Shown in pieces: positions 23,513 to 25,521 of a DNA stretch of 33,644 nt. Below the pieces are notes generated by a model. It was not told the origin of the DNA. It made no database searches and worked only from the letters and a program-made list of their open reading frames with translations. Location of the stretch: positions 1 through 33,644 of IMG/VR virus record IMGVR_UViG_3300044825_000621; one strand, 5' to 3'. This DNA is from a virus. Every line of letters begins with the position of its first letter. Within the stretch, counting starts at the first letter, position 1. The translations under genes and the position numbers were made by a program.

Positions 23513-23772
23513 CAGTGCATCGTCCCGGCTGCTTCCTTCATGGCCTCCTTGTGCCCACGATACGCAGCCACAGCACCCACGCTGAACCACGCAACAGAAG
23601 TCCGCTCATCCGCCAGATTGGGGGATAGCCCCTCCGACTCAGCGAGCATCACACCTGCCACCTTGGTCAGCGCCATCAGGATAACGAACATATCCTCCCC
23701 ATCCAAGACTGACTCCAGCCGGTCTGACAATTCCATGGCCTCCCTGACCAAGCTCATCACTTCCTTTTCCAT
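23512..23772 (-). CDS. First gene of the replication operon, small helical protein (86 aa)
   Basis: The protein has 86 residues, starting at an ATG after AGGAGG (4 bases apart). It is helical and moderately acidic: MEKEVMSLVREAMELSDRLE, MFVILMALTKVAGVMLAESE and VGAVAAYRGHKEAMKEA. I do not recognise it. As the promoter-proximal gene just below the triple operator, it could be an early regulator, perhaps the ligand of those sites, but no HTH is evident. Confidence 0.65.
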   Translation of the reverse strand: MEKEVMSLVREAMELSDRLESVLDGEDMFVILMALTKVAGVMLAESEGLSPNLADERTSVAWFSVGAVAAYRGHKEAMKEAAGTMH

Positions 23773-23782
23773 ACCACCTCCT

Positions 23783-23836
23783 CTACATATAGTGGATGAT
23801 TCCTCTACATGTAGTAATCATAATCCCTACATATAG
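23783..23836. promoter_or_regulatory. Three phased palindromic operators (22-bp spacing)
   Basis: CTACATATAG at 23783-23792, CTACATGTAG at 23805-23814 and CTACATATAG at 23827-23836 recur every 22 bp. The middle one is a perfect palindrome and the outer ones differ from it at one position. Two helical turns between copies put them on one face of the DNA. They cover the spacer, start site and leader of the replication promoter, a layout typical of a dimeric repressor binding cooperatively. Confidence 0.8.
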
Positions 23837-23845
23837 ATGTGTCAA
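23817..23845 (-). promoter_or_regulatory. Near-consensus sigma70 promoter of the replication operon
   Basis: On the minus strand a perfect -35 TTGACA (23845-23840) and a -10 TATGAT (23822-23817, one mismatch) are 17 bp apart. Transcription would begin near 23810, about 38 bases upstream of the first ATG. One operator lies in the spacer and one over the start site. Confidence 0.82.
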
Positions 23846-23875
23846 CAGGTAGTTCTGGTCTCATCCTACCTATTG
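23843..23875. promoter_or_regulatory. Inverted pair of ACCTRTTG motifs
   Basis: CAACAGGTAG (23843-23852) and CTACCTATTG (23866-23875) form an inverted pair with a 13-bp gap, overlapping the -35 end of the replication promoter. The same TACCTATTG and TACCTGTTG motifs form a direct pair at 25265-25273 and 25282-25290 in the opposite-facing early promoter. This suggests a shared regulator at both promoters. Confidence 0.45.
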
Positions 23876-24172
23876 CATACCCGTGTCTAGGTTCCCCAAG
23901 GGTGATAGCCCAGCCTTTACCCATGCCGTAGGCACAGAGGCGGTGGTATCTCCCTGCCCAACGCCCTGCTACTGGCGCCCAGCAAACCCGTGAGGCAGCG
24001 ATTATCTCGATGGCAGGGTTGTCTCACCACTTGTCCCCACCGTCTTGTGTAGTCCCTCGCTGACAGGCTACGTGGCTCGCAGGGGGGTGAATCCTCGGCC
24101 AGTGTACTCTCTACGGCAGCCCATGCAGGCTCTCTGCTATCGCGGTAGGTGCGGTCAGAGCGCCCAAAGAAA
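23876..24172. other. Gene-free stretch of the central control region
   Basis: There is no coding region with a ribosome site here. The sequence is GC-rich with short inverted repeats such as GTAG...CTAC near 24050 and a CGTCTTG at 24041. CGTCTTG also occurs at 24618, 24718 and 24807. Purpose unknown; it may be part of the same noncoding transcript or a remnant of further repeat modules. Confidence 0.4.
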
Positions 24173-24333
24173 AACCCCAGTACAACTTAGGTGGGGCATG
24201 GCCCGTTGGCATGGGCAACTCAGTCATATCCACGCTAATGGATTTTCCCCTCGTGAGAAGGAAGATATAACTGAACTACACATGCCCCACCTAAACTGAC
24301 TGGGGTTAGTACTCATTAGCGTATATGACAGAG
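24173..24333 (-). ncRNA. Large structured RNA element ending in a U-tract
   Basis: Outer arms AACCCCAGT (24173-24181) and ACTGGGGTT (24299-24307) pair, and AGGTGGGGCATG (24189-24200) pairs with CATGCCCCACCT (24281-24292). Inside, CAGTCATATC (24221-24230) pairs with GATATAACTG (24264-24273) with one mismatch. On the minus strand the stem is followed by TTTTTCTTT, so it can end a transcript. CATTAGCGT near 24314 can instead pair with ACGCTAATG at 24232-24240, giving a competing structure. Strand is inferred from the T-run. Confidence 0.6.
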
Positions 24334-24506
24334 TGCCAGCTCTGACAGGACGAATGATAAGACAGTATGAGATTCCGTGCAACTGGACGTTACTGGACTT
24401 TAGTGGAGGTTGGTGACCGGCGCTGATCTCCGGCATATTCAGGTCAGCCTTGGTGTCCGTCGTTTCCTGCATTAGCTCCGGCTCGCCGCGTATCAGCCTA
24501 CGCATT

Positions 24507-24709
24507 CACCAACACGACTGAGGACTGCGGCCTTACGAGCCCGCCTAGTCACTAAGGACACTCCGCTGATCTCATTACCTTTAGTCCGGACTTTCCAGTA
24601 ATAAGCCAATCCTCATGCGTCTTGGTTGTTGGTGACAGCTATTCCCTATTGCCCGTGTGCGATATGCCACTGCCAGCTATTCACTGACACCAACACGACT
24701 GACCACTGC
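24507..24709. repeat. Diverged tandem repeat module, 181-189 bp period
   Basis: CACCAACACGACTGA followed by NN and ACTGC occurs at 24507-24528 and 24688-24709, 181 bp apart. TCATGCGTCTTGGT recurs at 24613-24626 and 24802-24815, 189 bp apart. TTAGTCCG and AGC-AAT segments recur in between. The copies are well diverged, so the duplication is old or under structural rather than sequence selection. The second module abuts the tRNA, the first abuts a tRNA-like element. Confidence 0.65.
24623..24695 (-). ncRNA. Degenerate tRNA-like element
   Basis: Read on the minus strand it is 73 bases. It has a perfect 7-bp acceptor stem (TGTTGGT with ACCAACA), unpaired A and CCA end. A 3-bp D-like arm with a 7-base loop (CAG-TGAATAG-CTG) and a T-like arm with 4 of 5 pairs and a 7-base loop (AATAG-GGAATAG-CTGTC) are present. 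The anticodon arm is unclear; GTGGCATAT resembles that of the neighbouring tRNA-Met with three bases missing. The T-loop lacks the TTC motif. It is likely a pseudo-tRNA or tRNA mimic. Confidence 0.4.
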
Positions 24710-24811
24710 TATTTCCCCGTCTTGCTACCACCGAGGTGTCTAGAACTCGGGGCTTCCCGCTTCTGGGTTAGTCCGCTTTACGTTTTCACGTCCAGCAATG
24801 GTCATGCGTCT

Positions 24812-24886
24812 TGGTAGCGGGAGCCGGAATCGAACCGACGACCTATGGAATATGAGCCCACCGCGCTACCGCTGCGCCATCCCGCA
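24812..24886 (-). tRNA. tRNA-Met (CAT anticodon), CCA encoded
   Basis: On the minus strand a 75-base cloverleaf is complete. The acceptor stem has six pairs (GCGGGA with TCCCGC) plus a T-T first pair. The D-arm is GCGC-AGCGGTA-GCGC, the anticodon loop CTCATAT gives CAT, and the T-arm GTCGG-TTCGATT-CCGGC has the standard loop. ACCA follows. CAT could read AUG, or AUA if lysidine-modified. The mismatch at the first pair would be compatible with an initiator-like feature, but the anticodon stem lacks the three G-C pairs of initiators. Confidence 0.92.
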
Positions 24887-24895
24887 TCTGATGAG

Positions 24896-24926
24896 ACTAT
24901 AACAGGAACGACATATTGCGTGTAAA
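24896..24926 (-). promoter_or_regulatory. Promoter of the tRNA transcription unit
   Basis: On the minus strand TTTACA (24926-24921) and TATAGT (24901-24896) are 19 bp apart. The -10 is preceded by TG with one base between, an extended -10 form that tolerates long spacing. Start would be near 24889, just before the tRNA. Confidence 0.6.
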
Positions 24927-24967
24927 AAAAGCCCCCCGTCTCGAAGGAGGGGGAGAGCGGAGGGGCT
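24924..24967 (-). terminator. Orphan rho-independent terminator on the minus strand
   Basis: On the minus strand AGCCCC pairs with GGGGCT, with further C-run to G-run pairing inside, and a run of seven T follows (24930-24924). No minus-strand gene lies between here and the divergent early promoter, so what it terminates is unclear. It overlaps the tRNA promoter -35 and could insulate the tRNA unit. Confidence 0.75.
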
Positions 24968-25208
24968 CCCGGCATTCACCACCGGCAAGAAGACTCTCCC
25001 CGTCTCTCCGGGGTGTCCACAGGATCATCCAGTTACGCTACAGCTTAAAGGATTACCAGACTCCTGTCGCCGCCGTTTGCCCACCTGCGGCTGGGGTATG
25101 AACACAACAACGTTGCAATCACCGAGTACTCGCTACATCTGGCAAGCAATGACCGCTTTGGAGGTGCAGTCTCCAGCATCCGCTTTCCTCGCCCCAAGAA
25201 TAGCATAC
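24968..25208. other. Gene-free stretch upstream of the early operon, possible minus-strand small RNA
   Basis: I see no coding region. Small hairpins include CCCCG...CGGGG (25007-25022 region) and CCGG...CCGG near 24969-24986. Because a minus-strand terminator follows directly at 24967-24924, these bases could be the body of a structured small RNA transcribed leftwards. No convincing promoter was found for it. Confidence 0.3.
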
Positions 25209-25232
25209 CTATCTGGAAGAATTACCAGATAG
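25209..25232. promoter_or_regulatory. Second LexA-type operator, upstream of the early operon
   Basis: Arms CTATCTGG and CCAGATAG surround AAGAATTA, matching the palindrome at 15261-15284 in both arms and in 21 of 24 positions. The core is again CTGG-N8-CCAG. It lies 39 bp upstream of the -35 of the early promoter, where a dimer could act as repressor by looping or as activator, or control a leftward transcript. Confidence 0.75.
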
Positions 25233-25270
25233 CCTTAATGCAACAGATTGTTCCCCCTTGAATATACCTA

Positions 25271-25299
25271 TTGACACTACCTACCTGTTGTAATAGCAT
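25271..25299 (+). promoter_or_regulatory. Promoter of the rightward early operon
   Basis: A perfect -35 TTGACA (25271-25276) and TAGCAT (25294-25299, four matches) are 17 bp apart. Start would be near 25306, just upstream of the GGGAGG ribosome site of the first gene. The -35 overlaps one TACCTATTG motif, and another (TACCTGTTG) lies in the spacer. Confidence 0.7.
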
Positions 25300-25323
25300 G
25301 CAGATATTGTGAGGGAGGACGCT

Positions 25324-25521
25324 ATGGGTAAGTGGAAAGAGTTTACTGACGATTCGGTACAGCAGCTATGGCTGGCGTACTGCGAAAAGAAGATGGAAGT
25401 CGAAGCGCTTCAAGAGATCAACGCAAAGCTGATTGCTGCGTTAGTAAAAATAAGAATGGGCGGCGATCCTCAGTGGGCTAATGATGTCCTAGATGAGATA
25501 GAACAAGGAGAACAACAATGA
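25324..25521 (+). CDS. First early-operon protein, small helical (65 aa)
   Basis: The ATG at 25324 is preferred to a GTG at 25309, because GGGAGG at 25312-25317 would be its ribosome site. The product is acidic and helical: MGKWKEFTDDSVQQLWLAYC and EKKMEVEALQEINAKLIAAL. It ends VLDEIEQGEQQ with an ATGA overlap into the next gene. It is not recognised; it resembles small accessory proteins of phage early regions. Confidence 0.7.
   Translation: MGKWKEFTDDSVQQLWLAYCEKKMEVEALQEINAKLIAALVKIRMGGDPQWANDVLDEIEQGEQQ

Follow-up and report, generated by a model that had tools for sequence, protein, structure and literature searches.

The minus strand of a tailed-phage genome fragment carries, directly after a tRNA-Met gene, two copies of a two-part unit made of a hairpin (A) followed by a domain (X), and these two modules apparently belong, on the sequence comparisons presented here, to a very large family of phage RNAs with swappable parts. 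According to our main reading, to which we give a probability of about one half, the region would encode a leftward noncoding RNA unit composed of the tRNA, two A-X units and a terminator, in which X would be a tRNA-like slot and the RNAs would act by tRNA mimicry. As for the structures and the family themselves, we are highly confident that they are real. The original prediction of an undescribed noncoding RNA operon gained support from stem covariation, from the minus-strand signature of the stems, from the common orientation of the linked tRNAs and from the lack of a matching Rfam family, but it had missed the membership of a large family, the K domain as the tRNA-like part and the exchange of cassettes.

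Setting and borders of the proposed noncoding unit

The window, i.e., the whole stretch of DNA analysed (33,644 nt), lies at 100% identity inside a 58.6-kb IMG/VR contig (L054 = G003), in which the tRNA-Met is the sole tRNA. Among the 20 window ORFs compared with PHROGs, matches were obtained to portal, terminase, major head protein/protease, helicase, exonuclease, an Erf-like annealing protein and an HNH nuclease. A leftward operon, whose first ORF ends near 23772, and a rightward operon, starting at about 25309, are about 1.5 kb apart, with no convincing gene between them; the noncoding unit occupies the middle part of this gap. As predicted, no coding region was recognized in the stretch: its longest ORF (24224-24505, 93 aa) had no PHROGs match, and a coding explanation was rejected. 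With the region as query, Megablast against phages gave no match, and the tRNA was the sole match in a more distant BLAST search. Inverted repeats (GTGTCAACAGGTA / TACCTATTGACAC at 23839-23852 and CAACAGGTAG / CTACCTGTTG at 25265-25290) sit at the two outward promoters (TTGACA-17 on both sides) flanking the RNA region, and they probably form one operator common to both divergent early promoters. Upstream of the unit, the GC-rich noncoding stretch 24925-25240, which has a terminator-like end of its own, is probably structured; no relative of it was present among the fetched loci.

Features of the noncoding region, in window coordinates and in the order of leftward transcription
Feature	Position	Strand	Evidence or detail
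Terminator-like site of the preceding upstream noncoding unit	24925-24948	-	stem 24948-24932, then T run
Extended -10 motif TGTTATAGT	24896-24904	-	one mismatch to TGNTATAAT
tRNA-Met (CAT), initiator-like, 3' CCA encoded	24812-24886	-	ARAGORN; Rfam RF00005, 59.6 bits
A1, frame hairpin with variable payload	24690-24814	-	fold z -4.97; frame conservation, stem covariation
X1 (B domain), closed by GUUGGUG/CACCAAC	24628-24694	-	inverted repeat I11; recurs elsewhere
A2, second frame hairpin, payload unrelated to that of A1	24509-24625	-	fold z -3.42
K domain (second X), tRNA-like plan	24409-24513	-	covariance model built without the window: 71.6 bits, E 5e-16
K closing stem	24507-24513/24409-24415	-	
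K hairpins	H1 24488-24503; H2 24416-24434	-	
K loop-loop pairing	GCUGAU 24492-24497 x AUCAGC 24422-24427	-	
Long intrinsic terminator-like hairpin, its apex carrying two small hairpins	24173-24307	-	z -8.6; T run 24174-24170
Element D, conserved and structured, directly downstream of the terminator	23860-24164	(-), tentative	13 viral contigs, alignment

At the upstream border, the terminator-like stem and T run are of a kind expected 1.2 times in shuffled sequences and found once. The extended -10 motif follows right after this site, a few nucleotides ahead of the expected start. The motif predicted to precede the tRNA is indeed present, but such matches occur at chance level in the window (8 observed vs 19 expected) and a search for a -35 box found none; its support is thus positional, between the terminator-like site and the 5' end of the tRNA. 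The minus-strand tRNA-Met of the prediction was recovered by both ARAGORN and the Rfam model. By reading, its positions 1 and 72 form an unpaired U.U and its 3' ACCA is encoded, like in initiator tRNAs, and the surroundings of its anticodon arm are similar to those of the bacterial initiator.

At the downstream border, the predicted long hairpin with a U-tract stands: these 135 nt fold with -70.6 kcal/mol and are followed by TTTTT. A relative (L009) keeps the long stem, with an apical part that differs yet folds. A tRNA at the apex of this hairpin was rejected, as ARAGORN called none and the D-arm-like GUAGUUCAGU pairs with ACUGAGUU in the rod; over 24160-24640, ARAGORN gave no second tRNA. 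A tRNA-like plan is found in the K domain. The whole 721-nt minus-strand RNA folds better than its shuffles (z = -4.1). Besides, the structured region extends past the predicted end of the unit, into the conserved element D. The consensus fold of D has a z of -6.3 on the minus strand and -4.7 on the opposite strand, and no Rfam match was obtained for it. It stops short of the minus-strand operon's TTGACA promoter, and such a promoter is usual after D.

Covariation of the A hairpins and the K domain

The two diverged repeat modules of the prediction are borne out by the direct repeats D1 and D2 of the two units (91% and 90% identical, spacing 181/189), which are folded and whose copies differ by compensatory changes. 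The A frame is CCAA(C/G)ACG.CA.UGAGGAUUG-[payload]-CAGUCCUCA.GU.CGUGUUGG; A1 and A2 share CCAAGACG.CA.UGA..AUUG ... CAGU..UCA.GU.CGUGUUGG around unrelated interiors, and the first bases of A1 (CCA) double as the 3' end of the tRNA-Met. Between the two copies, the frame stem changes in a compensatory way, with TGACCA/TGGTCA in one and TGAGGA/TCCTCA in the other (CC/GG vs GG/CC). Folding of the segments 24690-24815 and 24505-24626 gave z values of -5.0 and -3.4, respectively. Relatives of A were then sought with a pattern in which the stem positions were unconstrained. Roughly half of the initial matches proved to be due to chance and were kept as controls. The first six free stem positions were paired in all cells but one (G-C, C-G, A-U, U-G) among the 30 distinct elements with A-like flanks, and no pairing was seen in the 42 other matches of the same pattern. 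In a set of 108 elements, the inner stem positions were 95-100% paired and the internal loop CA/GU was kept in 107. The stem contained 119 G.U against 6 A.C cells, which implies that the conserved product is an RNA of the minus strand. The interiors of the payloads are only a little more stable than their shuffles, and hence no common payload fold is claimed.

The second X domain of the window, K, begins with the closing stem and a 3-nt linker (AAU), followed by a first hairpin GCGY[AGGCUGAU]RCGC, an insert of 12-166 nt, a second hairpin GCCGG[AGAUCAGCR]CCGGY and the closing strand. The first loop (GCUGAU) is complementary over 6 nt to AUCAGC of the second. In 36 sequences, the 22 pairs, loop-loop pairs included, were 97.7% paired vs 90.5% in shuffles, with 53 double-change cells vs 16 (0/500 shuffles as high), and slid controls were 28-54% paired. 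With 121 sequences, 145 double-change cells were counted in the closing stem (48 +/- 5 in shuffles), 20 in H1 (3.3) and 11 in H2 (0.7), every stem alone exceeding all 1000 shuffles. These numbers come from related sequences, retrieved with patterns in which the first hairpin was partly fixed. With the window left out, the 36 other sequences yielded a covariance model that recovered the window's K domain and also finds K in cultured phages outside the model. Hence, compensatory stem changes in relatives, whose absence would have counted against the original prediction, are present.

For the loop-loop pairing, the search was run leaving out the usual second loop. Jointly changed loops were found in L318 (GCUCA x UGAGC), L336 (GCUAAU x AUUAGC), L326 (UGGCA x UGCCA) and L352 (ACUGAU x AUUAGU), and another search gave L102 (ACUGAU x AUCAGU), whereas L313, L327 and L345 fail to fit the pairing. 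The pairing rests on these few changes, and its own shuffle control is modest, with few loop variants. On its own, K has a fold only marginally more stable than that of shuffles (z -1.35), and the proposed structure is not its nested fold of lowest energy.

These covariation data weigh on a simple explanation of the region, a decaying array consisting of one working tRNA followed by degenerate tRNAs and functionless spacers. Remnants of tRNAs do occur in payloads and X slots, and 1-5 tRNAs are present in some neighbours. However, strict frames and compensatory changes in more than 100 distinct sequences imply selection on structure, which largely refutes decay and leaves it extremely improbable.

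Linkage to tRNAs, distribution and exchange of cassettes

Both X domains of the window come after an A hairpin. Within 320 nt, 49 of the 103 distinct A 3' flanks had their exact 7-nt complement, vs 5.3 expected. The B domain is nearly unchanged in L037, L042, L122 and L161 and contains the internal repeat GAATAGCTG. Another recurrent X type, in L035, L062, L092, L137, L148 and L164, has a first-hairpin loop similar to UUAGC and is possibly a second loop-pairing domain.

The density of tRNAs is 0.156/kb within 1 kb of A and 0.003/kb beyond 2 kb, i.e., about 50 times higher near A, and the tRNAs neighbouring A or K share their strand in 51/51 cases. In one relative, the slot itself scores as a tRNA: the X domain of L109, bounded by GUUGGUG and CGCCAAC strands, reached 40.8 bits with the tRNA model (gathering score 29), exactly over GUUGGUG...CGCCAACA, and that of L091 reached 26.4 bits. 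Of the 63 X domains other than K, 7 had a 5-bp hairpin in T position abutting the closing stem (0.9 expected), the other 56 having no clear one. T-arm hairpins inside payloads of A or inserts of K numbered 11, against an expectation of 0.4, and the reverse strand had none. K shares with tRNA a closing stem of 7-8 bp, the four-part plan with a T-position hairpin directly on the stem, a short linker ahead of the first hairpin and none behind the last, as well as strand and neighbourhood, with a true tRNA in the slot of some relatives. It differs by the lack of an encoded CCA and of canonical D and T loops, by a 6-nt loop pairing that is not the D-loop/T-loop contact of tRNA, and by its insert where tRNA has the anticodon arm. 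Since neither K nor B of the window matched RF00005 at the 29-bit threshold, they have the plan of a tRNA and not membership; K follows the cloverleaf in plan only, its stems covarying at the positions of the plan while its loops differ.

The two parts of the family are widespread. The A frame pattern CAGTCCTCAGTCGTGTTG by itself was found in at least 119 viral contigs and the exact K core in at least 120, and BLAST with K retrieved 134 cultured phage records, some via one half of K only. K was also present in 7/300 genomes of a further Burkholderiales sample, and 156 of 5,426 E. coli genomes contained the HK633 version of the region, in whole or in part, in their prophages. Two bacterial contigs, L191 (Polynucleobacter) and L188 (a Burkholderiales MAG), carry an A frame with a closed X, L191 having K as well, which suggests that the hosts of these phages are freshwater Burkholderiales. 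The A-frame matches of three other bacterial contigs (L187, L189, L190), without a closed X domain, are probably due to chance. In cultured phages, K is often overlapped by hypothetical ORFs and also occurs in kilobase-long noncoding regions. In phage Bas77 (L364 1588-2070), it is antisense to annotated ORFs among tail genes, and in phage Magnus (L366 2401-2535) a hypothetical protein is annotated over it; the hypothetical proteins over K in these two phages are likely false ORFs. Klebsiella phage UPM 2146 (L183, record 88143-92230) has about 3 kb of noncoding DNA with K, an STnc100 match that scores exactly at the gathering threshold and two stretches resembling tRNAs, with T-arms and CCA ends, neither of which is called by the Rfam tRNA model.

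The location of K bears on a role in cis, as a leader or processing element that would influence, for instance, antitermination or the stability or cutting of a leader bearing a tRNA. In the lambdoid phage HK633, the E. coli HS prophage and ST16-OXA48phi5.2, K is found between Q/pR'/qut and the holin gene, and it adjoins tRNA genes in some cultured phages, e.g., phiEt88, as such a role would have it. However, K is 3' of the repressor gene in EPP-1 and IME307 and among tail genes in Bas77, and in the window it is part of a noncoding unit with its own terminator. So many settings argue against one fixed cis role, which we regard as quite unlikely, and in favor of a trans-acting RNA.

Payloads and flanks of A have been exchanged independently. 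Among 145 A elements, 47 pairs had a common 3' flank and different payloads, and 72 pairs a common payload and different 3' flanks. This is illustrated by L025, whose 3' flank is 99% identical to that of L013 with payloads only 36% similar, and whose payload is identical to that of L004 with 3' flanks only 29% similar. The exchange breakpoints are located at the A frames, and recombination at short frame homology by the Erf-like annealing protein of the phage would be a plausible route. Such exchange could also be expected if the frames were DNA elements, either attC-like folded sites or homology boxes, and the array a series of DNA cassettes with a functionless RNA. Integron attC sites are folded sites with a variable terminal part, GTT/AAC edges and a core GTTRRRY/RYYYAAC, and they serve cassette exchange. 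The A/X units share the folded site with a variable end, the exchange and the GTT...AAC edges with a common, mutually complementary core, and the nearby annealing protein and exonuclease could recombine at short homology. However, GTTGGTG/CACCAAC misses the attC core by reading, no integron integrase was found among the 20 window ORFs compared with PHROGs, and K, which lacks an attC-like core, has a tertiary pairing that covaries. The excess of G.U over A.C cells in the stems is that expected for RNA, and all linked tRNAs are co-oriented. An attC identity is thus not supported, and we consider DNA elements very unlikely in either form.

The GUUGG strand is complementary both to CCAA(C/G) at the A foot and to the CCAAC ending X, the two pairings being mutually exclusive; in the case of A1, the tRNA-Met's own CCA is part of the competing strand. 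The outer pairs of the A foot are 94-99% kept, except for a single position with similar numbers of C-G and G.G. A folding switch through a change of the GUUGG partner is possible. An extended reading, in which a mobile RNA-cassette array would use this switch to control the tRNA CCA and its payloads would be decoys or inhibitors against tRNA-targeting defences, appears unlikely to us as a whole. If true, it would represent a categorically new phage element, with constant frames presenting hypervariable, horizontally exchanged payloads. Conversely, the variety of payloads could mean that they do not matter.

Proposed tRNA mimicry and comparison with known RNAs

In the mechanism that we propose, the initiator-type tRNA, the two A-X units and the terminator would form one leftward transcription unit, whose transcript would be made and cut like a tRNA precursor. 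The X slot would hold K in the window and a recognisable tRNA in some relatives, and the paired loops of K would lock the arms in D and T position together. The released tRNA-like RNAs may mimic tRNA and thereby occupy or distract host factors that handle or attack tRNAs. The A frames would provide a fixed scaffold and, probably, short stretches of homology for payload exchange between phages. Mimicry is the most economical reading because of the tRNA plan, the tRNA linkage and the tRNA-filled slots, and the decoy role is proposed because phages use tRNAs against tRNA-cutting defences (PMC11555353; PMC10264068). As a function for these RNAs, tRNA mimicry is put forward tentatively, with the odds somewhat against it. 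If K does mimic tRNA, it could help to explain directly the presence of tRNAs, and of the noncoding DNA surrounding them, in phage genomes, and the swapping of payloads within constant frames would add a new means of RNA diversification in phages. K is kept, unannotated or hidden beneath false ORFs, in more than 100 cultured phages across several families and hosts and has so far remained outside RNA catalogues. As laboratory-growable coliphages carry it, the idea is directly testable.

Comparison with known RNAs gave few candidates. In an Rfam 15 scan of the window, nothing but tRNA was matched, low-score matches to Plastid-ycf2 (tRNA antisense), snoTBR5 and rydB being rejected as chance, and ARAGORN found no tmRNA. 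Rfam 15 and the open literature that was searched gave no description of the A/K RNAs. The bacterial Y RNA YrlA is a noncoding RNA with a tRNA-like module enclosed by a Ro-binding end stem. Both YrlA and the window RNA have a tRNA-like module, but that of the window comes after a separate hairpin; no Rfam match to YrlA was obtained and no Ro/RtcB gene was found among the window genes tested, so that a Y RNA identity is not supported. The prophage sRNA STnc100 (RF02076) shares the long noncoding regions of UPM 2146 and of Aeromonas phage ST4 with K. Its sequence differs from the window RNA, and its covariance model matched L183 and L185 only, with no match in the window.

The main rival to tRNA mimicry is a scaffold or cage of the GOLLD/ROOL kind, formed by folding or self-assembly of the whole transcript, in which frames and paired loops would make the contacts and payloads would be disordered or peripheral. 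GOLLD and ROOL are phage RNAs found near tRNAs, one GOLLD (env-38) lying downstream of a Met-tRNA, and they have kissing loops and a variable linker able to hold tRNAs (PMC12286853). This setting matches that of the window, as do the large size, the strong folding and the constant contacts around variable interiors. However, GOLLD and ROOL models were unmatched in 23700-25500 at E up to 5, in line with the absence of Rfam matches other than tRNA. In many phages K occurs solo or with one A-like hairpin, which better suits a small domain, and its loop pairing can be explained within one molecule; we hold such a scaffold to be rather unlikely. Like GOLLD and ROOL, the window RNA is phage-borne, several hundred nucleotides long and close to tRNAs, with loop-loop contacts and a variable interior; it differs from them in being built of small, repeated, exchangeable units, of which K also occurs alone. 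GOLLD and ROOL are thus its closest known relatives in kind.
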